Program-made: the position numbers and the translations under genes
DNA from: a virus
IMG/VR virus record: IMGVR_UViG_3300048037_000822
Span: 1 to 23,839 of that record
Direction: 5' to 3' (one strand)
DNA length: 23,839 bases
Part shown: positions 6,309-23,448 of the stretch, piece by piece
How the letters are laid out: every line of letters begins with the position of its first letter
Position numbering within the stretch: position 1 is the first letter of the stretch
Notes under the pieces: model-generated
The model's database searches: none
Seen by the model: only the letters and a program-made list of their open reading frames with translations
What the model was told of the DNA's origin: nothing

Positions 6309-6764
6309 ATGGACTTCAGCAAAAAAATATTCGTAAGCAGAGATGTAACCGACCACGAAGTATATCTTGTAAAAGAGATATTACACAGCATAGATTTCGA
6401 AAGTTACCTCTCAGAATCCTTCTTGTATATAGACATGAGAAAGGATGGGGGGCTGGAGATTATAAGTGTCGACAACGAACAGGTGTTCCTTGCCTCCAAA
6501 GAGCTGAGGGTAAGTAATAAAATGGCCATAGAATACTTGAGATACCAAACTAAAATAGAGCAATCCATAAACAGCGTCCTGTACTGGGCAGGCATAAACA
6601 ATATGAAGAAGTTTGTTCCCGTAAAGGAAGATGACGGAAACAACAAAGAGTACGCTGATATGAATGTTTACGCTCACAGCATGCCGGAAGCCCTTAGATA
6701 CCTAGATGAGCTATACAGGGGTGACTTTGTGTACATAGAAGATGTCGATGAGGAGATATGGTAA
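6309..6764 (+). CDS. Hypothetical protein, 151 residues
   Basis: I place the start at ATG 6309 (MDFSKKIFVSRDVTDHEVYL), because the only earlier start in frame is a TTG two codons upstream. TAAATTTG at 6298-6305, just before the ATG, is a perfect TAnnTTTG but would give an essentially leaderless mRNA. The protein is acidic, mixed alpha/beta, with a central helix-rich segment (SNKMAIEYLRYQTKIEQSIN) and an acidic C-terminus ending EDVDEEIW. I recognise no family. It overlaps the downstream nuclease gene by 23 nt, so the two are probably coupled. Confidence 0.75.
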   Translation: MDFSKKIFVSRDVTDHEVYLVKEILHSIDFESYLSESFLYIDMRKDGGLEIISVDNEQVFLASKELRVSNKMAIEYLRYQTKIEQSINSVLYWAGINNMKKFVPVKEDDGNNKEYADMNVYAHSMPEALRYLDELYRGDFVYIEDVDEEIW

Positions 6765-7200
6765 AAAGCGCCAGATAACCAGGCACAAGAAAACCACCGT
6801 TGACGGCATACAGTTCCAGTCAAAGTTAGAGTCTCACATGTATTTGTTGTTTAAGGCACACAAAATCCCAGCTGAATACGAAAGCACAAAGTTCACAATC
6901 ATTGACTCTTTCGAGGCAGACTTTTCATCTTACGAAAAAACACCAGCTAAAAAACACCTTCAAGACAGAGGTCATAAAAAGATATTACCTATTACTTACA
7001 CCCCTGATTTTGTTGATCCAAACAACCCACCCCGCTACATAGTAGAGTGCAAAGGAAACCCAAACGAACGTTTTCCGCTTGTCTGGAAGCTTTTTAAGCG
7101 CTATATAAAGCTTAATGGGTGGAAAACTGACCTGTTTGTTCCAAGAAACCAAAAGGATTGCTTAGAAGTAATTAAAATAATAAAAGAAAAGTATTATTAA
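6742..7200 (+). CDS. PD-(D/E)XK nuclease, T7 endonuclease I/DUF1064-like
   Basis: This 152-residue basic protein shows the PD-(D/E)XK core: E30 in SKLESHMYLLFK, P88-D89 in YTPDFVDP, and E102-C-K104 in YIVECKG. Such small phage nucleases include Holliday-junction resolvases (T7 endonuclease I) and DUF1064 proteins. A role in resolving branched DNA before packaging, or in host DNA breakdown, is likely. Two ATGs (6742 and 6748) compete as starts, both inside the upstream gene. The N-terminus is rich in Arg/Lys, typical of DNA binding. The stop TAA overlaps the stop of the convergent 2126-residue gene on the other strand. Confidence 0.8.
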   Translation: MSMRRYGKKRQITRHKKTTVDGIQFQSKLESHMYLLFKAHKIPAEYESTKFTIIDSFEADFSSYEKTPAKKHLQDRGHKKILPITYTPDFVDPNNPPRYIVECKGNPNERFPLVWKLFKRYIKLNGWKTDLFVPRNQKDCLEVIKIIKEKYY

Positions 7201-10200
7201 TCTGCAGACTGATCAACAACAGTTCCTTTTTCTAAAATATCAAATTCGTTTTCGATAGCTCTCTGAAGATACGTCAAGAACCTATCCATTTCTTTTCTAG
7301 GTCCTGGGTTTACTGTGTTCATTAATCTTAGTGTTGCGTTCAGAGTAATAGCTCTTTCTAGCTTCTCTTGTCTTTCAGGAGATATTTTAGCACCAACACT
7401 TCGTTTCATGGTACCAAAGTCTCCGAGATATATCTCGTGTTGATAACGTAAGGCTAAACTTATTGCATCTACTACTTTTGTGCTTTGCTTTGTTGCTATA
7501 GAGAACATACCTAAGTTGTTTGCTATAAAATTCAATCTACCTCCTTCAGTTCCAATATCTACCAAATCACCTGTTGCAAATTCAGTAAAAGGTTTTTCAC
7601 CTGTAAGTAAATTAGATATCTTGTTTAAGGCAGCAAACCCCATATCGTCAGCGCCCTCGAAGAGCATAAATGGAACGCCCATGGTCAGTGTTTCCTGAAC
7701 AACAGGCATCAAAGCATTGTAGTCTTGTTTAATCTTAAACTGATTTTCGTACTCTCTTGCGGCTCTATCTATATAGTACATTGCTTTATCTATGTCTGAT
7801 ATCTCTTCATAGTCCAAATCAGCAAGTAATGATATCGCTTGACCTTCCTTGGTGGTTTTAAGAATAGGTGCCTTACCGCTCTTCAAATCCTCGTACCCTT
7901 TGTCAAGTATAGGCAGAACATCTTCACCAATAAATCCTGTCAAACCTCCTCTTTCTCTTATCTCCTCATCTTCCAATCCAAACCCGACAACACCAACTAA
8001 ACCAGAAATCAATGCTGCATCGATTGCCATGTTGGTTGCCTTAAAACCAAATACCTCTGTTATCACACCTTTCATTGCGTTACGAGCATCTTCTTTTTGG
8101 CTTTCAGGAACCTTTGGATCTTGAAGTATAAGGTATTGATTCATGAAGTTTACCCTTGCGTTTGTGACAAACCTTTGAAAGGCAAACATGCTTTTAAGAG
8201 TGAAGTCTACTGCGCCTTTCGGATCAGTGTATATTGGAGCTTCTGACATCTTTCCTGTCTGACGCATTGTTCTGGCTATGAGATTATCTGCGAAGTCAAT
8301 AGACGCCTGGTCAGGGTTTTCGTTTTCTGCCTTCCACCATTCTCTCATGTTGACACCCTTGAGATCTAAACCTTGCATGGTTCTGTGTTCAATGTAAAAT
8401 GCCTCAAAAGCGGCATTTGCTGCAGATCTATCTGCGCTTGCAAGGAACACCTCAAGACCCTTCTCACTTTGGTTTCCAACCCAATCAATAAATTCTGTTA
8501 TGTTATATTTTAACCTTGTTGATACGCCCTCTGGTAGATCTAATTTTTCACCATCCACTCCGTAATGGTCTAAGTAATACTTCAGTGGAAGTTTAGTGTT
8601 GTCTTTCAAGTCAAATTCTGCCTTCAAGGAGTTTCTCAATGACGTTCTGGATAAATTATAGATATTAGACAGATCGCCATTACCAAAAATACTGTTTTGA
8701 ATAAACCTTTTGTATTTAGTTTTTGCTGTGCTTCCGGTGGACAATCCTGAATGACCAATTATAAATTTACCTAAATGTTTAAGTGCGTGAGATTTTGCTT
8801 TTCCAGAGTTTAAATAATTGTATGCACCACCCAATGCACTTACGTACTGCTTTGGCCTTTGTGATAGCCCAGCCAATGCACCTGCAGACAACAATTTGTA
8901 TGTACTTTCGATTGTTCTTCCAACAGCCTGTTTAGCAAAGGGAAAATCTTGCATACCCTTCAAGTCATTTGTTCCGTCCGTTACAATTTGATCGTACATA
9001 CGGATTTTACCCATGAACACACTTTTGATTAAATCATATTCTTCTTTACTTTCAAACTGTTGCTCGAACAAAGGGTTATTTAATAAATATTGAAGAGTTG
9101 TTATGTCTTTTCTTGACATGGCGTCAAGCTTATTGTTCTGTGTGTACTGTATTACTTGTTTTGCAAACATGCCAGGATTTAATCTAAGACCATCCTTGTC
9201 CACTGAATCCACAAACTCTGTCTCTTTAAAACCTACAGCACTTCTAATCCCATCACCATCTGTATCTTGGTTGTTAGACTTGTAATTAGGACTTTTGTAG
9301 AGCACCATAGGAATGTATGTGCCGTCAACAAATGGTTGCTCTGTTCCTCTTTTTTCGTTATAGTTTGATCCCCAAAAATCAGTCACTCTTGTAAGTGCTG
9401 TTTGAGTGTCCTGTATTGACGCAACCTTTTCTATGAATGAAATGTTTGCAGGGTTTGCGTTCTCTTTTAAGTCATCGAAGTTAAAAGCTGAACTAAATCC
9501 TAATCTATCGTAGGCTTCTTTCATTAAAAAGTAATCGTTCTTCAAACGTTTTTTGTTCTTAGTGTCAGCGTTTTCGTACTCTTCTTTTCGTAATGCAAGC
9601 TCCTGCTCAACCATTGTCTTCCATCTACTAAACTCTAAATCAAGCTTTATCTCTTTTGAGCTGCCATCATCTTGCAGTCTAAACTTGGTTTTTTCAACTC
9701 CTGACTTACGGAAAGCATACGCTAACAGGTACTGCTCCATGGCATTGTATGGATCATTTATGTCTGTTGACATTTTGCTTTTAGAAAGCGGTAGATTCTT
9801 ATTATACTCTATAGCTTCTTTTTTGTATTCTTGGCTATAGTTGTCATAAACACCTTTAAACTCCCTTTCGTTTACAGATTCATTGTTTAATATGCTTCGA
9901 GTTAAATTGTAAAACTCAGATCCGACTTCTTTATCTCTAAAAACCGTTTGCAGAAGGTTGTCGACTGTAGCAAAACCTTTTCCTTCCAATAGACCTGTTC
10001 CTAATCCAAAAGTTCTTTGACCCCAATTAACCCATTTTGTGTACAACTTATTAAGATCACTGCTTCCTTCTGTCATATCAGAATCAAAAACCTTTATCTT
10101 CTCTGGGTTTTTAGCAGATATATCTAGCGCTATGCCATAAGCGTCAAGTATAGATTCTATATCACCTGCTCCAATCAACGGGTCTTTGTTGCTCTTTTTT

Positions 10201-13200
10201 ATGCCGTTTAAGTATGATATAATTTTGTTTCTTTGAGGGTCAGGCAAAGAAGTCATGAAATCGATATCGTTGTTGTATTTTTCTAGCCTATCTAAAATGT
10301 CCTCAAAACGTGCTGGCATATCAATAAACTGAGGTAGGTCCTGAAGTTTTGAATCGTCAGAAAATTTATCATCTGTTTTTTCAAGCTGCTTTGGATCGAA
10401 GGCCATGACTTGCTGACGAAGATTCCGAATGTCTGATACGGTGTTGTTGAGGTTAAATGATCTAACTTCCTCTTGATCCAACTCTACATTTAAATCAGCT
10501 GGGTTTATAACAACATAAGCTTCTTTTGGCTCGAACTTGACTCTATTTTCTTCTTTTCCATCAATAACATCTCTTTTAAAAATCTCAGCTGCTCTTTTGG
10601 AAATATCTTCTTGAGAAAAATTGAACTCCAACGTTTGCCCTGGCTGTGTCTCTGCTTGCTCCTCCACTTCTTTTGTCAACTCTTTAACAGCTAAGTCATC
10701 ATACTTCATTTGAGTTGGTTTGCTTTGGTAATAATAACTAACCAAAGAAGGGTAGTTAGCAAACACTTTAGACATTTCATCGTATACAACCTGAAGGTTT
10801 TCCTGTGTCTTTCTTTTTACATCTGGGCTAATATTAACGTCAGAAAATTTTGTTCTGGCCTGCTCAAGTTTCACGATGTTGTTAAGAAGAGACATCTTGT
10901 GCTCAGGCTCCATCATTTCGATCAATTCAATCTTAGCCTTGTGTGTATTTAGAATATCATCATTAACCTGTTGCTGTAGTTGAATTGCTGATTTGAACTC
11001 TGGATTACTCATGTCATCCAAACCTCTATCCCTATATGACTGAACCTGACCATCGAAATAGAATTTTTGTGAAGCAAGAGTTTTTTCGTTGCTAAGAGAC
11101 ATGTTGCTAAGTATATTGTTTTCTACAGCTTTATTCAGAGCCCGGCTTTTGCCCATCTGCGCAAACTTACTCAAAGCTGATGAAGTAAACATAGTTGTAA
11201 GCCCTGTGTCCTTGAAGAGCTGTGCCGCTTTTTCAGCATCGTATTCCTCTATACCCCAAGCTATTCTTATTCCGTAATCACTAAAAGCAACCAACTCCTC
11301 CTCTGTAAACTCATTTGCTAGTGCCCTCGGGCTGATTCCTAAATATCTAGACACATTGCCTATCAAACCCTTTCTCATTTCTTTCGAGTAGCTATTTGCA
11401 ATCTTTCTAGCGTTTTCTAGATTTCTAGTACCTTTAAAGTTTTTAGCGCCAGCCATGTTTTTAAAAAAGCGCATAGTAAACAGTGCAGTAAAAGCAGTCT
11501 CAGTTGATGCAGATGATAAAGCCAAAGCTCTTGCATCCCAATCAGACATATTTAAAATCTCTTGTTGTGAAGCTGTCAATGCCTGACCTTCTTCAAGCTG
11601 AAGTCTTGTTGCTTCTCTAAGCTGATCCATCTCGTACTTTGTACCGCCATAAGATGACACAGCAGTTGTGCCTAATCCCAAATATGGATTTACAGCAAAC
11701 ATTGCGTAGTGCGGTATGCTGGCTGTAAAAGGCTCACTGACTAATGCCAACATTTCCCCAAAACTATCAGAATCACTTATATTCTTATCCCAAAGTGGTA
11801 AATATTCTTCTTTTAGTGACTCAACAGTATCATAGGAGAGTGCAGATGGCTTCAGTATTGGAAGACCATGAACTCCATAAACAGACATATCAGCAACCAT
11901 TGGGTGCATGCCTAAAGCCACTAATCCGTCTCTCATAGTGTAACCCAAAGCTGCAGCTAAGTCCAGTGCACCTATACCTAGGCCTTGTACAAAATCACCG
12001 ACCATTAACCCAGCAATTTTTGCATTAGGCGTGTCAGAATCAACAGCACTGTTTCTTTCTACAAGACTTGCTGCCCCTTTTACGTAGGGAGATAGCTGAC
12101 CATACACATCTGGATTATCATCAATATCTATTTTAATTTCACCTTTAATAACTGCATTCCTACCTTGAGGATTTAATATTATGTCTTGTAAATCGTTAAG
12201 TGATGAGGCTCTACCGTTTATTTTTATTCCTTCAGTCGAAATATCTTCTGGCTTCAGACCTCTGTCATATAAATCCATAACAACTTGCTGATCATTAAGA
12301 TCTAAATCTTTCATTCTACCTGAAAGTGTTAAAGCTTTTGCTATCATTCTAGATGAGAAATCTTCTTGCTCAACTATTTTATCATAGATGCTCGTAATGG
12401 CTTGACCTAACAAATATTTATCGTACTCTTCTTGATCCACAGCTTGAGGTCCGTAGAAGTCCTCCATAAACCCTTGTTCCTCGCCTAAAAAAAGAGAAGA
12501 GTCAAGTAATCCAATACTTCCACCACCTGCTGTCATCATCGCCCTTTGTTTTGCCCCTTCTACTGAAGGATCCGTCGGATGCAAAGGGTATTCTTCAGCT
12601 AACTGAAGTAGTTTTTTCTTAAAAAATTGTATGTCAAAATCACCGTTGTCTTTGTAAAACGCATTAAAACTTGACATGTTGGTTAACTCTGCTATGAATT
12701 CGACTGAATCCATGTTTATACTTTCCATGTTGACATTGCCAGGACTCACAAATCCTTGGTTTGCAAAACTTATGGATTTAATAAGGTCATCTGATTTGGA
12801 GAACCCCATGGTTAGCCCATCAAGCATATCCATGGATTTGTTTTTGTTTGTCAGGAAAGATTTTAAATCATCTACTACATTTTGCTTTTTTAACTCAAGG
12901 GCTTCTTCAGGGGTCCTAATAGCTGTGTCATCTTGCGCAACGTAATCAGTTAGTTTTACTTGTGCGCTTCTTATGTCGTTGTAAAGTTGAAAATTGTATT
13001 TTTCTCCATCTGGTGCTGTAATCTCAAGCTTGTTTTCCCCAAGGCCATATTCACTAACCTCATACCCGAAAGGGCTGAGTTTATTAGAGAGCATAATCTC
13101 TACATCACCTTCGTTTCCTGTAATGTCTTGTGTAGTTATATTGTCAACAACCTTGCGTAAGATACGAGGTCTGTTATTATTAATCTCTACCTCTGGTAGA

Positions 13201-13577
13201 TCTTCGAGCTCTTGCTCCGACAAAGATGTCGTATCTGAATGCGTGGATGGTGATTCCGAAACTGAAACCACGTTTGCGCTTTGAGATAAATCTTTTGGTA
13301 AGGTCTGGGATAGATTTTTTTTTTCAACGTCTTCTTTCTCCAGCCAACTACTGTAAATCGAATCACGGCTTTCACCCTTCGGCATCAAATTACCTATACC
13401 ATAGTTGGTATGGAACCTGCTGATGTTATTCTTAAGATCACCATCTGACACCCAAAACTCCAAAGCCTGGTCACTCAACTCTATTCCGTTTTCTAACGCA
13501 ATATCAGAGTAGTATTTTTTTGCCAATTCTTTTTTGATTGGGGGGTCGGTTTGTGTGATATTGTTGTTCACAATCAT
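7197..13577 (-). CDS. Giant putative ejection/internal virion protein (2126 residues)
   Basis: This 2126-residue protein is the last gene of the minus-strand virion block, in the place of T7 gp16, the large internal protein that enters the cell envelope during DNA ejection. The N-terminal 150 residues are polar with a Ser/Asp-rich linker. Hydrophobic, glycine-rich stretches lie near residues 520-560 (GDFVQGLGIGALDLAAALGY), about 620-640 (NPYLGLGTTAVSSYGG) and 1845-1865 (ALISGLVGVVGFGL). Charged helical, possibly coiled-coil regions lie around 830-900. A polar DTDGDG sequence near 1435 may bind calcium. No transglycosylase, protease or polymerase motif is evident. The mix of soluble helical regions and membrane-active patches suits a protein translocated into the host. 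The start ATG is 11 nt from the stop of the preceding gene. Confidence 0.7.
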   Translation of the reverse strand: MIVNNNITQTDPPIKKELAKKYYSDIALENGIELSDQALEFWVSDGDLKNNISRFHTNYGIGNLMPKGESRDSIYSSWLEKEDVEKKNLSQTLPKDLSQSANVVSVSESPSTHSDTTSLSEQELEDLPEVEINNNRPRILRKVVDNITTQDITGNEGDVEIMLSNKLSPFGYEVSEYGLGENKLEITAPDGEKYNFQLYNDIRSAQVKLTDYVAQDDTAIRTPEEALELKKQNVVDDLKSFLTNKNKSMDMLDGLTMGFSKSDDLIKSISFANQGFVSPGNVNMESINMDSVEFIAELTNMSSFNAFYKDNGDFDIQFFKKKLLQLAEEYPLHPTDPSVEGAKQRAMMTAGGGSIGLLDSSLFLGEEQGFMEDFYGPQAVDQEEYDKYLLGQAITSIYDKIVEQEDFSSRMIAKALTLSGRMKDLDLNDQQVVMDLYDRGLKPEDISTEGIKINGRASSLNDLQDIILNPQGRNAVIKGEIKIDIDDNPDVYGQLSPYVKGAASLVERNSAVDSDTPNAKIAGLMVGDFVQGLGIGALDLAAALGYTMRDGLVALGMHPMVADMSVYGVHGLPILKPSALSYDTVESLKEEYLPLWDKNISDSDSFGEMLALVSEPFTASIPHYAMFAVNPYLGLGTTAVSSYGGTKYEMDQLREATRLQLEEGQALTASQQEILNMSDWDARALALSSASTETAFTALFTMRFFKNMAGAKNFKGTRNLENARKIANSYSKEMRKGLIGNVSRYLGISPRALANEFTEEELVAFSDYGIRIAWGIEEYDAEKAAQLFKDTGLTTMFTSSALSKFAQMGKSRALNKAVENNILSNMSLSNEKTLASQKFYFDGQVQSYRDRGLDDMSNPEFKSAIQLQQQVNDDILNTHKAKIELIEMMEPEHKMSLLNNIVKLEQARTKFSDVNISPDVKRKTQENLQVVYDEMSKVFANYPSLVSYYYQSKPTQMKYDDLAVKELTKEVEEQAETQPGQTLEFNFSQEDISKRAAEIFKRDVIDGKEENRVKFEPKEAYVVINPADLNVELDQEEVRSFNLNNTVSDIRNLRQQVMAFDPKQLEKTDDKFSDDSKLQDLPQFIDMPARFEDILDRLEKYNNDIDFMTSLPDPQRNKIISYLNGIKKSNKDPLIGAGDIESILDAYGIALDISAKNPEKIKVFDSDMTEGSSDLNKLYTKWVNWGQRTFGLGTGLLEGKGFATVDNLLQTVFRDKEVGSEFYNLTRSILNNESVNEREFKGVYDNYSQEYKKEAIEYNKNLPLSKSKMSTDINDPYNAMEQYLLAYAFRKSGVEKTKFRLQDDGSSKEIKLDLEFSRWKTMVEQELALRKEEYENADTKNKKRLKNDYFLMKEAYDRLGFSSAFNFDDLKENANPANISFIEKVASIQDTQTALTRVTDFWGSNYNEKRGTEQPFVDGTYIPMVLYKSPNYKSNNQDTDGDGIRSAVGFKETEFVDSVDKDGLRLNPGMFAKQVIQYTQNNKLDAMSRKDITTLQYLLNNPLFEQQFESKEEYDLIKSVFMGKIRMYDQIVTDGTNDLKGMQDFPFAKQAVGRTIESTYKLLSAGALAGLSQRPKQYVSALGGAYNYLNSGKAKSHALKHLGKFIIGHSGLSTGSTAKTKYKRFIQNSIFGNGDLSNIYNLSRTSLRNSLKAEFDLKDNTKLPLKYYLDHYGVDGEKLDLPEGVSTRLKYNITEFIDWVGNQSEKGLEVFLASADRSAANAAFEAFYIEHRTMQGLDLKGVNMREWWKAENENPDQASIDFADNLIARTMRQTGKMSEAPIYTDPKGAVDFTLKSMFAFQRFVTNARVNFMNQYLILQDPKVPESQKEDARNAMKGVITEVFGFKATNMAIDAALISGLVGVVGFGLEDEEIRERGGLTGFIGEDVLPILDKGYEDLKSGKAPILKTTKEGQAISLLADLDYEEISDIDKAMYYIDRAAREYENQFKIKQDYNALMPVVQETLTMGVPFMLFEGADDMGFAALNKISNLLTGEKPFTEFATGDLVDIGTEGGRLNFIANNLGMFSIATKQSTKVVDAISLALRYQHEIYLGDFGTMKRSVGAKISPERQEKLERAITLNATLRLMNTVNPGPRKEMDRFLTYLQRAIENEFDILEKGTVVDQSAD

Positions 13578-16305: not shown

Positions 16306-17079
16306 TTACATGTTGCTCTTGAATACCTCTGTGTTGGCACTAAAAAGCTCTACAAATGAGGTAGACATGTTAGTCAACGTAATCTTAGCGTGATATCCAC
16401 GCACTCCATATGACTCAGCAGATGCATTTTTTACAACAAAACAAAAATCGTTTGTTGCTGGCACATTAGCTGAAGCCACTGTAGTAATAGTTTTGTCTGT
16501 GATCTCCTGTATGACACCGATAAGTTTTGAACTTCCATCGTTAAAATACAACTCATCCCCACCTTGATTATCGGTACCACTCTTCGAAACCTGGTTTGGT
16601 ATATATCCACTAAAGGTGTATTGGTTAGACCCCGGTGAACTCTGTAGATTTCCAATGCCAAGTATAGATAATTTGTTAAAATCAAGCTTATCTGTCTCAT
16701 TTCTGCGTATATAAGCGTATTTTATACCTTCTTTATCCTCAAATTTGTACGAAGAGCTGTCTCCGATAAGCCCAGATTCCAACTCACTATCTATATCTGC
16801 GTACCAACTACTAGAATTAGTCTCTAATGACAGATTTTTGAACATTTTGACAGTCGATGGTTCTTGATTCGAAGAAAAGGTCACACTACACCCATAAGAA
16901 GTGCCATAAAAGCTTCCTCTTTCCTCATTGGCATCATGCTCATACATCTCTCCGTTCTTGAATGAATACATCTTGTTACCAAGTCTTTCCATCCACTCTG
17001 GCGTATATGCATGAAAAGAAGTCCAAGCGTTGTAGACTTCATCCCATGTAAGCGTCTTTTTGTTTGCTTCTAATGCCAT
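16306..17079 (-). CDS. Detached tail-hub C-terminal segment (257 residues)
   Basis: This 257-residue protein starts MALEANKKTLTWDEVYNAWT and continues SFHAYTPEWMERLGNKMY and KNGEMYEHD (to about residue 50). In the tail-hub/stabilization proteins I know from Bacteroidota podoviruses this strand pattern (a W-S-F-H-Y-P stretch, then GNKFYS-type and a lone H-D) follows directly after the propeller. Here it is a separate gene. The remainder is beta-rich (YTFSGYIPNQVSK; KLIGVIQEITDKTITTV; YHAKITLTNMSTSFVELF). Its ATG overlaps the stop of the 1826-residue gene as TAATG, ideal for termination-reinitiation. It probably completes the hub structure by binding the larger protein. The family comparison is from memory. 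Confidence 0.65.
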   Translation of the reverse strand: MALEANKKTLTWDEVYNAWTSFHAYTPEWMERLGNKMYSFKNGEMYEHDANEERGSFYGTSYGCSVTFSSNQEPSTVKMFKNLSLETNSSSWYADIDSELESGLIGDSSSYKFEDKEGIKYAYIRRNETDKLDFNKLSILGIGNLQSSPGSNQYTFSGYIPNQVSKSGTDNQGGDELYFNDGSSKLIGVIQEITDKTITTVASANVPATNDFCFVVKNASAESYGVRGYHAKITLTNMSTSFVELFSANTEVFKSNM

Positions 17080-20000
17080 TAGTTATCGTCTTTAATTTTA
17101 GGCCATGTCTCACCTGGTGGCGTGAATCCTAAATCGTTTAATATACCCGTTAGATGATATAGATAGTAGTACTCCCACTTATCAAATCTATCTGTATTTG
17201 AACCTGGTTTAATTGGCGCCTCACCATCACCTTGATTATCTTCATCCTCAACATCGTATCTGAAAGCAAAGTACGGCTGACTTGTTCCAACCTTCATGTC
17301 TGATAAATTATATTCTTCTCCGTACTGACCTGTTCCGTTTTCAACAGCCTCTATTAGGTTTTTAAAATGGGTGCCCTGATTAGCGTCATTTTTAACCTGT
17401 ATAATACCACCTCTATAGAAACCGGTGTTAGTTTCGTTTCTATTTAATGTTTGCGTTCTTAAATGATTTATATCCTCATTAAAAGTGCCTGTTTTGGTGC
17501 TATTAATAGTCCAGCTACTTCCTGGGGTATAACCATCGTGGGTATCAGTCGTAACAGCTTGTGCTTCATCTTGGAAAACAATTATTATAATAGATTCAGG
17601 TATGGGATTGCCATTTGAATCTGCTGGCAAAGTGGTTGGTGTCCAGGGGCCTGTGTTACCATTTACCTGCGTAACCATATAATTCACATCAACATCAGAA
17701 AGAGCTAGGAAAGTTCTTTCGTTTGCTCTATTGTGATCTGTGTTTGTATTGCTTGTTCCCCATTCTTTGTTCTCGTCGTCAGAATACATAACCTTAACCC
17801 TACTGTCGTAAAGATCGCTACCATTTAAAGCAGAATCTGTAGATTCCGGATTACTAGCGTACAGAGGCTGAATGGTCTCTTTAAGAGAATTAGCAACCAT
17901 TTCGTTCAATTTAACGCCTGTTCTATCCATAGACCCAGAGGCGTCAAAATATATGTAGATAAACGTGTTTTCGTTAATATTGAGCGCTTGTGTGGTTACT
18001 GTAGCCACATCTGTACAAACATCAGATGCAATACCCTCAGCATTTTTAGATGACACTCTATATTGAAAGTTATCTGACAATGAAGCTCCATCTGTGTGCT
18101 GATAAGTAATAGTTATGTTATCTTGCGCATCGTTGACAATTGCCGTCCCGTTACTAGGCGGGGTTTCTATCTCTACAATGTAATTACTTGGCACAGTGTC
18201 GTTTGCAAGGACATCAATGACCTGTGAGCTTCCGTTTTCAATTCCTATTACCTGATCGTCAGTAAGGGCTGGAATGTCATCTACATAATCCCATAGAAGA
18301 TAAAGTTTTAGGTCTTTAGTCTCTCTATTGACCTCAAATGTAATAGTGCTTTCTTGAGTATCATCAGTAGTTTCTGTTTGTATCTCCGGGTAAGTAAAAT
18401 CATTTAGCCTTGTGCCTACTTCTTCAGCGCTTAAAGTGTCAGATTCCCACATGTACCCCATCTTATTGCAATCTGTGAAGGTTCCCGTATGGTCTGCTAA
18501 TATTTTATACGATGACATAACAAGATCATCGAGTTGAGCAGGTATAAGATCACTACCCATAGGGCCCGTTATTGTTTCGTATCGTGTATTACCGCTGTAC
18601 TTGAACACATCAAGGTCAGAATCCCAGTTGTTACCACCTACACCTAAATGCTTAAATCTGTTAATTATTGTATTATCAGCTTCAGCGGGGTCGTTCCTGA
18701 CAATAAGCACGATCTCCATGGTGTCAGGTTGTGGACATGTGTGAGTCAACGTGACGGTCGCTGTTGTTGCTGGAGTTACAGTCACATCCATTAAAGATGA
18801 AGCTGCTAAGTCGCCTGTAGACACAGGCACCTCTACCGTTCCGGTTCCTGTAAGACCTGTTTCTGTAGTGGTCTCTCCATTGTACAAGACACTGATAGAT
18901 ATTTCGCTATCGGTTTCATAGTCAATTAACGCTTTACCAGGATACACTCCTAAATTAACATCGTATTCGAATGCTGATGATATCTTTCTTCTTATTTCTG
19001 CAGCACAATCTACGACTAATGGGTCTGCAGGTCTTTCGTCTGCTCCAATAGTAAGCACATACTGGTGATATTTTGGATCAAAACCACCTATGTTAAAACT
19101 GTTTTTATTTGCAAACAAGTTTTCCTTGAAAAAAGACTTCATACCTTGGTAGGATATAGGCTCAAGCCCATCGCCCCCAAGCCTGAGAACCGTTCCTCTG
19201 TGTGCGTCTGTAAAGTACATTCTTCCTTGAAAGTTACTAAAGCTTTCTGGATGTCTAGATATTCCGTATTCTCCAGCAAATGCAACATCTTGCCCAAGAA
19301 CCTGTTCTATTTGCGTTAGGCTTCCAGACCCATCCGGGCTTGATAGCAGGTTTTTACCATACAACACCTTTGACACTCTGTCTTCTTGAAAGACTATAAG
19401 GTCTGTGTCCCTTGCAAATAACTTCTGTATAGAACCATATTTAAGATCTAAAAACTTTGTTATGCCTCTACTCGCATTAAACTCATTGAGAGAATTATAA
19501 CCTGTGTTCTCGTTGAAAGATCCGCTGAACACAAGCTTGTTCGTATCCTCTCTCTTTTCATAACCCTCTATCAGGGCAATGTTTGGTCTAGTTTGTATGT
19601 CAAGGGCTTTCTTAAACCTATCGTCTAGTATACGAACACCTTCAATTCCATCGCCAAAACTAAAACAGTTACCAAAACCTAGCTTGCATACGGCAGGAAT
19701 GTACGGCAATGATTGATTTGAAACATTACCTAAATGAACCCCATTGCTTATTTCAAATGTTTCTTCTGTTTCGTAAAAGATGTCGTTATCGATTTCGTCA
19801 GGGTCAGTCTCAAATATCACCAAGTCGTTTGACAATATTATATTAATCTTCATAGACAAATCCCCTGTCTGGGCTTTATTCTTTCTTTCATTTGGCTTTA
19901 CGTGTAAATACCACCTGTCACCTGTAATTGTTTTCTGATAGAATGTAAGTGTAAAATGTTTTTCCTTTGTACCTTCATTCTTAGGCACAATGTATTGAAC

Positions 20001-22559
20001 GGCATTTACGTTGCCAGATCCAAAATCATCAACTACGGAACGAACAAAATTTGTTTCAGCCTCGAACCACTGCTCGAGAGCATTTCTGTTTGTTTCGGTG
20101 TTGTTTTGGTATTCTTTCTGAACAATATATTTTTTAACAAATTTGAATGCTTTTTCTTCACCAAATAGTTTACTTTCGTGGTAGTCAATTTCAAACGCAA
20201 TACTTGTGTCAGGCAGAAGGTCAATATCGTAATAACCATCATCATCCCAATCACCCAGATCTCCAGGTTTTTGCTTTTGTAATATACCGTATTCTGTTTT
20301 CTTGTTTTCATTACCAGGAAGATTAATAGTCATTACTCTGTCCATACCTCCTTTTGATGGCCACATTGGCCTATGATCCCTGTTGTAATAATTTACATAG
20401 TTGTCTTCTACAAAATCCATAACAAAACCAAGCGGTCTTATTTTCATGTACAGCCCAGACCTTTCAATAATATTCCCATTAGTAGCATCTATATTTCCAG
20501 CTATCCAACCTTCTTGATCTCCTTCAAAGTCAGGCGGAACAAAATCTTGTGCACCTTTGGTAGTGACATCAAGCACCTTACACTTCACTTCTCTGTCCAT
20601 TATACCATCACCATCTCTTTTTACAAAAAGAGTCATCCCTTTCTCAACCTTGCCTATATTTGCTCCCTCCAAAAGAACCCACCTGTAAACACCATCTTCA
20701 TAAAATACTGTACCGTATATGTTAAAATGAGGTCCTTTGTTTTGTTTTACAAAAAACTTGTAGCGGTCAGCCCAATAAGGCGGTTGATGTCTGACAGTTA
20801 ATTGTAAACTATTTAGCTTTGTTGAACCTGAGGGAGGGCAAAAAACTTCAGTTCCCTTTTCTCCAAAGTTTTTGCTAGGTAGCAAAACACTTGAGTAACG
20901 CCCATAACCATCCAAATAACACATTCCAACCTCGTAGCTTCTGTTTGATTTAAGAGACAAAGACGAGGAGCTTTCTTTAAGGGTTGCCGCTGCTACAGTA
21001 AATTTAAACTGCTCATCCTCTGTTTCCTCTGTTACGACCTCAGGATCTGGGTCGCCATCATAAACAGCAGTAAGCACAGGCGCCCTCAAAGTAAATGTAT
21101 TTGTTGTTGTCGCTGATGATTCTAATGAGAACTCACCGTACTCCTCTCTTATTATTGGCAGATTTGGCTTAAAAACAGTTTCTACATTATTCTTGAAAAA
21201 CCCATTTAATGCATCCAGAAGTTCTATGAAATCAGCAGATTCAGTAAATTTTTTAATATTTTGATAGTTCTGAGAGAAAACAATACCAACTACTATCTCA
21301 AGTTTTCCACCGCCGTATGTTTCTGGCTCTACTCCTTCTGTTTCAGAAAAAAGATCTATGCCAAAAGTAATCGATCTTCCTTTTTTTAACTCTAATCCAG
21401 ATCCGTCAAACTCACAAGTTATAAGATCTTCACTTATCTCAATTACAAAAGGCTCACCTGTATACTCTGCCGAAACAACTTCAGCCGAAAAGTTTATATT
21501 GATCTTCTCTTTACTTTCCTCTTCATCTGTCAAATCATATTGTGATGTTGTATTACCGAATATCAATCTATCACCAATAAACTCTTGTGACTTTGCGGTC
21601 AAAGGAATATCGTCGTATATTCTATTTACTTCGTCGGCAGGTAGAGTTTTGTATATTTTTTTATTTGTAAACTCGTATGTGTAATCCCTATCGTCTAAAA
21701 TAGATTTTTCTTTTTTATTAATGCTTTCAACCACATAAAGGTTTGGTTCTGTTGGAAACTTAAAAAGCAATTGAACATCTGTAACCCTTTTGTCTCCTGA
21801 ATCGTATGTAATTTTGTAGCCATTAAAAATATTCTGCATGCCTTCATTAACCATAGATGCAAAATCCACGTCTGATTCCCCGGGGAAAAACTTAAAGTAT
21901 GTAAAAGAAGATGGTGCAGAGTAGCCACCGTCTAAGTATCTGTATCTATAACCAAAAGAAAAGAAGTTTTCACGCACAGCATTCTCTGTTGAATTTGCTG
22001 TATTGAAGGGTACAACAACAGGTGCTTTTCTCGGAGGCTTTTTGTAAAGAGATATATCGTCCTCGTAAAAATTGTTTTTACCAAATGCTTTTGCTCTTTC
22101 GATATCAACCATTCTAGGTTGATTCAGTCCATCAGTAAAAAGAAGCAGTTTTGACTTCTTGGCAGGATTATAAACTACATTAACACCTGTAATCTTGTAA
22201 TCTTTGTTAAACTTTAGTATCTGCTCATCTGTGTCTCTTTCGTCAGCAAGAACAGTTGAGGTTATAGCTTTTTTTACATCATGCTCAAAGACGTAGGAAT
22301 ACCCAAGGTCATTTACAACAAACCAATATATTCTTTCGTCACCTTCGTCAGATACCGAGCCTATACATTCAGGGTTATTGCCTAGCCCTAAAGATGTGAC
22401 CTTAACGTTACCCTTTTCATTTTCTATAGCACCAGCATCAGAACCTGAAGTATTTAAGACTCTAATATTATAGCCGTCAATAAACTCGCCACTAGGAATA
22501 AGACGTTCATCGACGTCCTTGTTCATTTTCCCGGTGGAAAATAGATTTTTAATTTTCAT
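17079..22559 (-). CDS. Giant tail-hub protein with Ig-like and vWA domains (1826 residues)
   Basis: This 1826-residue protein is the largest tail component. Residues 10-51 (GKMNKDVDERLIPSGE onward) and about 1100-1135 (GRMYFTDAHRGTVLRLGGDG) match the beta-rich hub/stabilization proteins of podovirus-like phages (compare P22 gp10-type propellers), sited at the tail tip. Acidic calcium-loop-like sequence lies near 765-780 (GDWDDDGYYDID). After the propeller-type part (to about 1170) comes a roughly 650-residue extension: an unknown beta-rich region (1180-1440), a cadherin/Ig-like module around 1440-1526 with NDT (D1454) and a V-rich end, and a von Willebrand A-like domain from about 1530 with MIDAS D1539, S1541 and S1543 (FDASGSMD) and a strand ending FQDEA (D1664). 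The extension would project toward the host surface and bind metal and ligand. The start is 1 nt from the preceding stop. Confidence 0.85.
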   Translation of the reverse strand: MKIKNLFSTGKMNKDVDERLIPSGEFIDGYNIRVLNTSGSDAGAIENEKGNVKVTSLGLGNNPECIGSVSDEGDERIYWFVVNDLGYSYVFEHDVKKAITSTVLADERDTDEQILKFNKDYKITGVNVVYNPAKKSKLLLFTDGLNQPRMVDIERAKAFGKNNFYEDDISLYKKPPRKAPVVVPFNTANSTENAVRENFFSFGYRYRYLDGGYSAPSSFTYFKFFPGESDVDFASMVNEGMQNIFNGYKITYDSGDKRVTDVQLLFKFPTEPNLYVVESINKKEKSILDDRDYTYEFTNKKIYKTLPADEVNRIYDDIPLTAKSQEFIGDRLIFGNTTSQYDLTDEEESKEKININFSAEVVSAEYTGEPFVIEISEDLITCEFDGSGLELKKGRSITFGIDLFSETEGVEPETYGGGKLEIVVGIVFSQNYQNIKKFTESADFIELLDALNGFFKNNVETVFKPNLPIIREEYGEFSLESSATTTNTFTLRAPVLTAVYDGDPDPEVVTEETEDEQFKFTVAAATLKESSSSLSLKSNRSYEVGMCYLDGYGRYSSVLLPSKNFGEKGTEVFCPPSGSTKLNSLQLTVRHQPPYWADRYKFFVKQNKGPHFNIYGTVFYEDGVYRWVLLEGANIGKVEKGMTLFVKRDGDGIMDREVKCKVLDVTTKGAQDFVPPDFEGDQEGWIAGNIDATNGNIIERSGLYMKIRPLGFVMDFVEDNYVNYYNRDHRPMWPSKGGMDRVMTINLPGNENKKTEYGILQKQKPGDLGDWDDDGYYDIDLLPDTSIAFEIDYHESKLFGEEKAFKFVKKYIVQKEYQNNTETNRNALEQWFEAETNFVRSVVDDFGSGNVNAVQYIVPKNEGTKEKHFTLTFYQKTITGDRWYLHVKPNERKNKAQTGDLSMKINIILSNDLVIFETDPDEIDNDIFYETEETFEISNGVHLGNVSNQSLPYIPAVCKLGFGNCFSFGDGIEGVRILDDRFKKALDIQTRPNIALIEGYEKREDTNKLVFSGSFNENTGYNSLNEFNASRGITKFLDLKYGSIQKLFARDTDLIVFQEDRVSKVLYGKNLLSSPDGSGSLTQIEQVLGQDVAFAGEYGISRHPESFSNFQGRMYFTDAHRGTVLRLGGDGLEPISYQGMKSFFKENLFANKNSFNIGGFDPKYHQYVLTIGADERPADPLVVDCAAEIRRKISSAFEYDVNLGVYPGKALIDYETDSEISISVLYNGETTTETGLTGTGTVEVPVSTGDLAASSLMDVTVTPATTATVTLTHTCPQPDTMEIVLIVRNDPAEADNTIINRFKHLGVGGNNWDSDLDVFKYSGNTRYETITGPMGSDLIPAQLDDLVMSSYKILADHTGTFTDCNKMGYMWESDTLSAEEVGTRLNDFTYPEIQTETTDDTQESTITFEVNRETKDLKLYLLWDYVDDIPALTDDQVIGIENGSSQVIDVLANDTVPSNYIVEIETPPSNGTAIVNDAQDNITITYQHTDGASLSDNFQYRVSSKNAEGIASDVCTDVATVTTQALNINENTFIYIYFDASGSMDRTGVKLNEMVANSLKETIQPLYASNPESTDSALNGSDLYDSRVKVMYSDDENKEWGTSNTNTDHNRANERTFLALSDVDVNYMVTQVNGNTGPWTPTTLPADSNGNPIPESIIIIVFQDEAQAVTTDTHDGYTPGSSWTINSTKTGTFNEDINHLRTQTLNRNETNTGFYRGGIIQVKNDANQGTHFKNLIEAVENGTGQYGEEYNLSDMKVGTSQPYFAFRYDVEDEDNQGDGEAPIKPGSNTDRFDKWEYYYLYHLTGILNDLGFTPPGETWPKIKDDN

Positions 22560-22560
22560 A

Positions 22561-23448
22561 CTACTTTATCCACTTATCTCTACCCCTAAGAATCTTGGTT
22601 AGATCCCCAATTGTAATAGAGCTTAATCTGATTTTCGCGTTTCTTAAAGATGCAAGGGCTTGTTTTTGTGCTCTACGTACTATATATTCCTGCACACCAA
22701 ACTTCTGTTTCAGTATGTTGGAAACCATGTAGTCATACATAAACGTTTCTGCTAGCTTGTGTATTTTGATCTCGTTGTCTGCAAGACCATACATACCATC
22801 TGAAACGTATTCTATAATGATATTTTTATCGGACAAGTCTGAACTAAATAAAATGTACCCTTGGTTTTTGTCTAAAACATAGCTACCGTTACTAGATGCG
22901 GAGGCCGTGTCCATCCCAAACCTTTTACCAACTAGATTGTTTTCCGGCTCGCTAACTTTTCCTGATTTTGAGTCTCGCCAATTTTGCTCGATAACAGGAG
23001 TACCAGTAAGCGCATTGTCGTCGTTGTCCATCAAAATATTTTTGAATGGCGTATTATCCTGCAAGTAACTCTTTGGAGTGGCTGTGTTGAAGTTTTGTTT
23101 TATTTCATAAGTTAAACCCTTGTTACCCACGTAAGACACTTTCACAGCACTTACAAAGTCATGTGGCAAATGAACCTTCAGTGTCGCAGGAATTTCTACC
23201 TCAAAACCTCTTATTTCACGTAGAGCGTCGTAGTGTAGCTCCTGTAAACCTCTTTTAGCGTGGAATATAACCTCGTTTCGATCCACTTTATTAATAACCT
23301 TGTCGTCACCTACATAAGTCAATAAAAAGTTGTTGATAATATCCTGTAACAACATGTATTGGTATGTTCCCCAATTGTCAGATCTTGGCTCCGTACCGCT
23401 GTTTTGATAGTATTCTCTTTGATCGATATGTGTTCCAATTGTAGGCAT
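22561..23448 (-). CDS. Tail ring/connector protein (295 residues)
   Basis: This 295-residue protein probably forms a ring between portal and tail hub, as gp11 in T7-like phages or ring proteins in crAss-like phages. Supporting parts are the helical N-terminal region (YMLLQDIINNFLLTY, residues about 32-46), the segment RNEVIFHAKRGLQELHYDAL (58-77), a beta middle (FEVEIPATLKVHLPHDF), and a C-terminal helical block (FMYDYMVSNILKQKFGVQEY) that ends in basic LTKILRGRDKWIK. The family assignment relies on similarity remembered from Bacteroidota podoviruses. It is 3 nt downstream of the truncated gene and 1 nt upstream of the hub gene. Confidence 0.65.
   Translation of the reverse strand: MPTIGTHIDQREYYQNSGTEPRSDNWGTYQYMLLQDIINNFLLTYVGDDKVINKVDRNEVIFHAKRGLQELHYDALREIRGFEVEIPATLKVHLPHDFVSAVKVSYVGNKGLTYEIKQNFNTATPKSYLQDNTPFKNILMDNDDNALTGTPVIEQNWRDSKSGKVSEPENNLVGKRFGMDTASASSNGSYVLDKNQGYILFSSDLSDKNIIIEYVSDGMYGLADNEIKIHKLAETFMYDYMVSNILKQKFGVQEYIVRRAQKQALASLRNAKIRLSSITIGDLTKILRGRDKWIK

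Follow-up and report, generated by a model that had tools for sequence, protein, structure and literature searches.

A crAssphage-type muzzle protein divided between two adjacent genes at the site of an inserted extension

Identity of the two genes

Two adjacent genes, P0001 and P0002, in a 23,839-nucleotide stretch of viral DNA (IMG/VR record IMGVR_UViG_3300048037_000822, positions 1 to 23,839; hereafter the window) encode two parts of a muzzle protein of the crAssphage type, the counterpart of crAss001 gp44. We are strongly inclined to see in them one muzzle made in two chains, probably co-assembled, with an adhesin-like cassette placed in a loop and serving as a host-contacting arm. The arrangement varies a protein already known and does not amount to a separate kind of system. 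In crAss-like phages the muzzle is believed to gate the release of DNA and protein; a propeller that, across a large phage group, needs a second gene for its completion would explain genes of "unknown function" such as phrog_18548, would mark the probable seat of host-range determinants, and offers a natural experiment in which a core virion protein is built from two chains and continuous relatives are available for comparison. A search of open-licence papers found no published report of a split muzzle.

The order on the minus strand is a phrog_13977 virion protein, P0001, P0002, and then three further large genes. The features discussed below are:

22561-23448, minus strand: P0006, virion protein directly upstream of P0001 (phrog_13977, 5.5e-53; gene order)
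17079-22559, minus strand: P0001, N-terminal chain of the muzzle plus extension, 1826 aa (phrog_14478, E 7e-258)
19047-22559, minus strand: muzzle part proper, P0001 residues 1-1171, propeller blades with inserted domains (alignment with fused muzzles)
17082-19046, minus strand: inserted extension, P0001 residues 1172-1826 (absent in fused homologs; most split relatives have homologous inserts)
18729-19025, minus strand: module 1, beta jelly roll, residues about 1179-1277 (AF2; jelly rolls of SIDT1 and collagenase CBD/PPC match at Z 9.6-12.1)
18285-18674, minus strand: module 2, beta-rich domain, residues about 1296-1425 (AF2 secondary structure)
17988-18278, minus strand: module 3, Ig/cadherin-like (Big_9-type), residues about 1428-1524 (Z about 7.7; Pfam Big_9 in relatives)
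17118-17987, minus strand: module 4, von Willebrand factor A-like, residues about 1525-1814 (Z 8.0 to the vWA of inter-alpha-inhibitor HC1; MIDAS)
17931-17945, minus strand: MIDAS motif DASGS, residues 1539-1543 (D, G, and S invariant in 21/21 aligned relatives)
17083-17085, minus strand: TAA in the P0002 frame, two codons 5' of the P0002 ATG (sequence)
17077-17081, minus strand: TAATG stop/start overlap of P0001 and P0002 (sequence; geometry in relatives)
16306-17079, minus strand: P0002, C-terminal chain of the muzzle, 257 aa (PF25729 crAss_MUZ_C, 4e-10; phrog_18548, 6e-36)
17005-17055, minus strand: TLTWDEVYNAWTSFHAY, strands that come right after the propeller strand in fused relatives (alignment A1; crAss001 1201 onward)
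16699-16923, minus strand: crAss_MUZ_C domain match (Pfam)

P0001, whose phrog_14478 match spans residues 3-1514, is a homolog of phi38:1 gp97 and crAss001 gp44; P0002 begins with MALEANKKTLTWDEVYNAWTSFHAY and matches crAss_MUZ_C with 40.4 bits against a cut-off of 27. Searches of the PDB with P0001 alone or P0002 alone (phmmer) or with the small profile A1 gave no matches, and only the family profile A3, drawn from fused and split relatives and including L096, a near-identical copy of the window, reached the crAss001 muzzle gp44 (7qok, 7qol, 8ckb; E 3.3e-19). The match of A3 to 7qok_A comprises two stretches, 28-159 and 1049-1281, and is unbroken across the join, with YFTYKDHCLCYSELINQFTSFMSY in crAss001 facing YVLTI/TLTWDEVYNAWTSFHAY in the window. 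An AF2 model of the fused phi38:1 muzzle had 7qol/7qok as its sole strong PDB matches (E 3e-11); the model is poor at the join (pLDDT <50), where strands could not be placed. The crAss001 muzzle is described as hexameric, with a propeller of seven blades; it sits at the tip of the tail and is believed to gate release (PMC10172136). The sequence-only reading had spoken of a two-part "hub" protein; the two-part tail protein stands, and on the crAss_MUZ_C and gp44 matches the "hub" becomes a muzzle. By gene order only, P0006 occupies the position of the ring protein gp43 upstream of crAss001 gp44. The nearest named isolates, with only the muzzle compared, belong to the Pervagoviridae, Pachyviridae, and Elemovirus, which their records place outside Crassvirales.

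The muzzle part of P0001 ends in the strand YVLTI (KYHQYVLTIG is residues 1163-1172, and GADE begins at 1172); alignments with fused muzzles stop at residues 1169-1173, in agreement with an end previously placed near residue 1170, and the family profile match to 7qok_A also supports residues 1-1171 as the muzzle part. The second gene does start through TAATG, within which P0001 and P0002 overlap by one base. The TAA just upstream of the P0002 start and an in-frame TAG two codons past the P0001 stop exclude both readthrough and any frameshift upstream of that TAA, and the genes therefore yield two polypeptides.

The inserted extension

An AF2 model of residues 1160-1826 (pLDDT 79.5) resolves four modules. 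Foldseek of the whole extension returned only Ig-rich matches with very low TM-scores, after which the single domains were resolved by VIA structure comparison. Big_9 is recognized by Pfam at the position of module 3 in two relatives (L098, 6e-10; L002, 4e-21). Module 4 superimposes on the vWA domain of inter-alpha-inhibitor HC1 with an rmsd of 3.8 over 156 residues, the AF2 model being weak over parts of the domain, and Pfam searches gave no VWA match; DxSGS or DxTGS is nonetheless present in all 21 aligned relatives, and the D of FQDE is also invariant. The first insert modules are related in 53 of the 56 loci split at this site, and different inserts occupy the same place in L015, L040, and L156. 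The insert of the distant L017 also ends in a vWA module (E 2e-55), which by sequence similarity is consistent with horizontal movement.

Comparison of closely related loci suggests how the extension has traveled. The window and L013 share 92-98% identity over residues 1-730, a figure that drops gradually to 80-88% over residues 993-1190; identity is 59-72% in the extension and returns to 94-96% where the extension ends and the C-terminal gene starts. With L092 the picture is the opposite: the extension is 88-98% identical, and residues 334-530 and 733-930 are 64-68% identical. Judged by these identities, the extension behaves as a moving cassette, swapped between near-identical phages with both flanks kept. 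The C-terminal gene has dS of 0.33-0.38 and dN of 0.007-0.010 relative to both L013 and L092, and dN/dS is well below 1 for both muzzle genes.

Continuous and split relatives

In phi38:1 one 1324-aa gene holds both matches, that of P0001 ending at 63928 (residue 1169) and that of P0002 beginning at 63947 (residue 9), so the halves adjoin and the stretch beginning TLTWDE directly follows the propeller, as the sequence-only reading had stated for related proteins. Both halves likewise lie in one gene, with 2-17 aa between them, in Calle_1, the elemoA and elemoF phages, L046, L048, L066, L070, L074-077, and L148-150; in the Tenacibaculum phage Gundel_1, assigned to Pachyviridae, the muzzle is a fused protein of 1386 aa in which 7 aa separate the two matches; and cr1_1 and cr50_1, both fused, have linkers of 3 and 5 aa. 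Across fused homologs the linker at the join is 2-21 aa, with no insert. Two of the closest known proteins, both continuous, resemble the window's in different ways. Both halves of phi38:1 gp97 (Pervagoviridae) are homologous to it (P0002 37% identical over 96%), but gp97 is fused with a 3-aa linker and lacks the insert; crAss001 gp44 agrees in its propeller strands, its C-terminal domain, and their order, and its gene has a ring protein gene upstream and large genes downstream, but it is a single chain without an insert at this loop. The crass and IG2 regions vary in length according to the crAss001 paper, in which passages on the muzzle mention no split (PMC10172136). Every Crassvirales muzzle examined (crAss001, cr1_1, cr50_1, and cr118_1) is one polypeptide; the window's is not, and it is thus a split variant rather than a standard muzzle.

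The window's own insertion and split site (site A) is split in 56 of the 72 dereplicated loci that, besides crAss001, make up our tree sample, the window included, so that split is the commoner form in the sample. In these 56 loci 112-1258 aa follow the same propeller strand before a stop, and the C-terminal part is its own gene; recurrence on this scale argues that the arrangement is not due to chance. The split form marks a large group of uncultured, mostly marine phages, and none of the loci sampled carries a large site-A insert inside one unbroken chain. Among 111 undereplicated pairs, the next gene lies between a 1 nt overlap and 23 nt away in 82 (one of which, L164, is actually split at the second site described below); in the other 29 the distance is 0.2-5.8 kb. 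G001 and G002 have their C-terminal gene about 11.2 kb downstream.

The Pachyviridae phi13:2, phi18:3, phi46:3, and phi19:3 are also split, with a 500-aa insert. The cultured Cellulophaga phage phi18:3 resembles the window in having two genes (gp114 and gp115) split at the same loop, with homologous first insert modules, and the annotation of its record lists both halves as virion proteins verified by MS/MS; its 500-aa insert, however, lacks the vWA motif and, past the Ig domain, is closed by one further short domain. The record is silent on the two genes being one protein in relatives.

Two further arrangements were seen. In L054 (7957-9789), L055, L056, L081, and L087 the C-terminal gene is apparently extended at its N-terminus, by hundreds of residues as judged from the open frame, a mirror image of the window arrangement. 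In Maribacter phage Panino (L009, 8500-8760) the muzzle is annotated as two genes with a frame change near GCTTTTTCC, inside the propeller, which may be a sequencing error or a programmed frameshift.

Evolution of the split

The proposal that an insertion had split one gene into two co-translated parts predicted homologs with the halves adjacent and no insert. Several lineages have exactly these, phi38:1, Calle_1, the elemo phages, L070, L148, Gundel_1, crAss001, cr1_1, and cr50_1 among them, so it is not the case that all homologs carry two separate proteins with an unrelated junction; moreover, the insert is present only in split forms. We would amend the proposal: the split is old, not recent, and is common to a large clade rather than specific to the window phage. 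The tree needs three changes for site A, although its long branches limit it; a single origin of the site-A splits is neither demonstrated nor rejected by the AU test (p 0.156, or 0.090 once Gundel_1 is added), and crAss001 cannot root the tree because its outgroup branch is 6.2.

A second split site (site B) is found in L157 and L161-L164. These are continuous at site A (about 6-14 aa) and have 399-919 aa inserted inside the C-terminal domain, followed by a stop; the last 90-100 profile positions of that domain form a separate gene. By these alignments, insertion plus split took place at two different loops in two clades, the second case being independent of the first.

Two other accounts of the gene pair deserve consideration. 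Two genes could be ancestral and the fused muzzles the product of insert loss and joining, as the prevalence of the split form in the sample and the unsure root of the tree might allow; but all Crassvirales muzzles examined and four or more other lineages are single chains, the join sits between two neighboring propeller strands, and two clades are split at two different loops. We therefore place the continuous form first and think fusion quite improbable. T7 gp12, a solved outgroup nozzle, is one continuous chain and also points toward fused forms at the base. It is scarcely conceivable that frameshifting or stop readthrough nevertheless links the two frames, so that the protein is not truly split: the Pachyviridae gene pair happens to share a frame (TAA, 3 nt, ATG), but gaps between the genes fall in all three frames across loci, the stop is TAA in 109 of the 111 pairs, the C-terminus of P0001 is conserved right up to its stop in the alignment of relatives, and the TAA and TAG of the window close both of its own frames.

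Proposed architecture

Taking the continuous muzzle as ancestral and the chains as separate, we envisage that i) an adhesin-like cassette ending in a stop would have been inserted in a late propeller blade, in the loop that joins two neighboring strands; ii) the remaining strands and the C-terminal domain would restart as the next gene from the overlapping ATG, probably by termination-reinitiation; iii) this second chain would supply the following strands of the same blade as well as the C-terminal domain; iv) the two chains would most likely assemble non-covalently into one propeller and ring-joining unit at the tail tip; and v) the extension, with its jelly roll, beta domain, Ig domain, and MIDAS vWA domain, would be left as a free-ended arm contacting the host surface. 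The TAATG overlap suggests translational coupling, or co-translation, of P0001 and P0002; tight coupling would not be essential, since the C-terminal gene is 0.2-11 kb away in some relatives. By its strand order the site-A loop is similar in kind to the one that bears IG1 beneath the crAss001 propeller, so the arm probably points toward the cell; the AF2 model being weak in this region, the direction was read from the sequence by eye. A split need not follow from an insertion, since IG1 and IG2 are inserted in the muzzle without one; a plausible reason for keeping the split is that a free-ended arm can be exchanged without touching the propeller.

Function of the extension and genes between the halves

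The extension is most likely an exchangeable receptor-binding arm on the tail tip. It could instead serve the tail tip in a structural role or in cargo handling and not be an adhesin, given that crAss001 encodes a separate vWA protein, gp52, and that vWA and Ig domains also serve in assembly. We find this unlikely: the insert is highly variable and is swapped between near-identical phages, and relatives add Pro/Thr-rich adhesin-like ORFs and sugar-modifying genes, both as expected of a host-facing part. We also suggest, at slightly less than even odds, that loop splitting is a recurrent way to hang an exchangeable free-ended arm on a tail-tip propeller that is itself conserved and that the gap between the halves is a hotspot for adhesins and the enzymes that hydroxylate and glycosylate them.

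The contents of that gap vary. In G001 (L184, 224-12161) the muzzle halves are about 11 kb apart, and the DNA between them codes for four repeat proteins rich in Pro/Thr/Ser together with a 2OG-Fe(II) oxygenase, an O-fucosyltransferase/carbamoyltransferase fusion, a GlcNAc-type glycosyltransferase, and an NDP-sugar epimerase; judged from these gene contents, the products are possibly hydroxylated and glycosylated phage adhesins. Modification-type genes (oxygenase, radical SAM/SPASM, glycosyltransferase, DegT aminotransferase, GNAT, and O-FucT or carbamoyltransferase) also lie between the halves in L054 (4185-7934), L055 (3168-8266), L081, L061, and L015 (5184-7890). In L008 (9144-9695), L053, L063, L068, L078, L057, and about ten more loci, the long muzzle gene is followed by short ORFs of a single family; its members start with the motif YYLD..TF..AT.IYDDA.LTT.A.DGWYSDG..VRQQ.SGVL, and one is annotated "putative glycosidase".

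Elsewhere in the window, positions 513-1070 encode a protein of 186 aa in which Pfam recognizes the C-terminal helix-turn-helix domain of DnaA (Bac_DnaA_C, 1e-10), and positions 7197-13577 a 2126-aa protein with no Pfam match and a chance-level PHROG match (E 0.08), the end of whose gene overlaps a convergent gene at 6742-7200.
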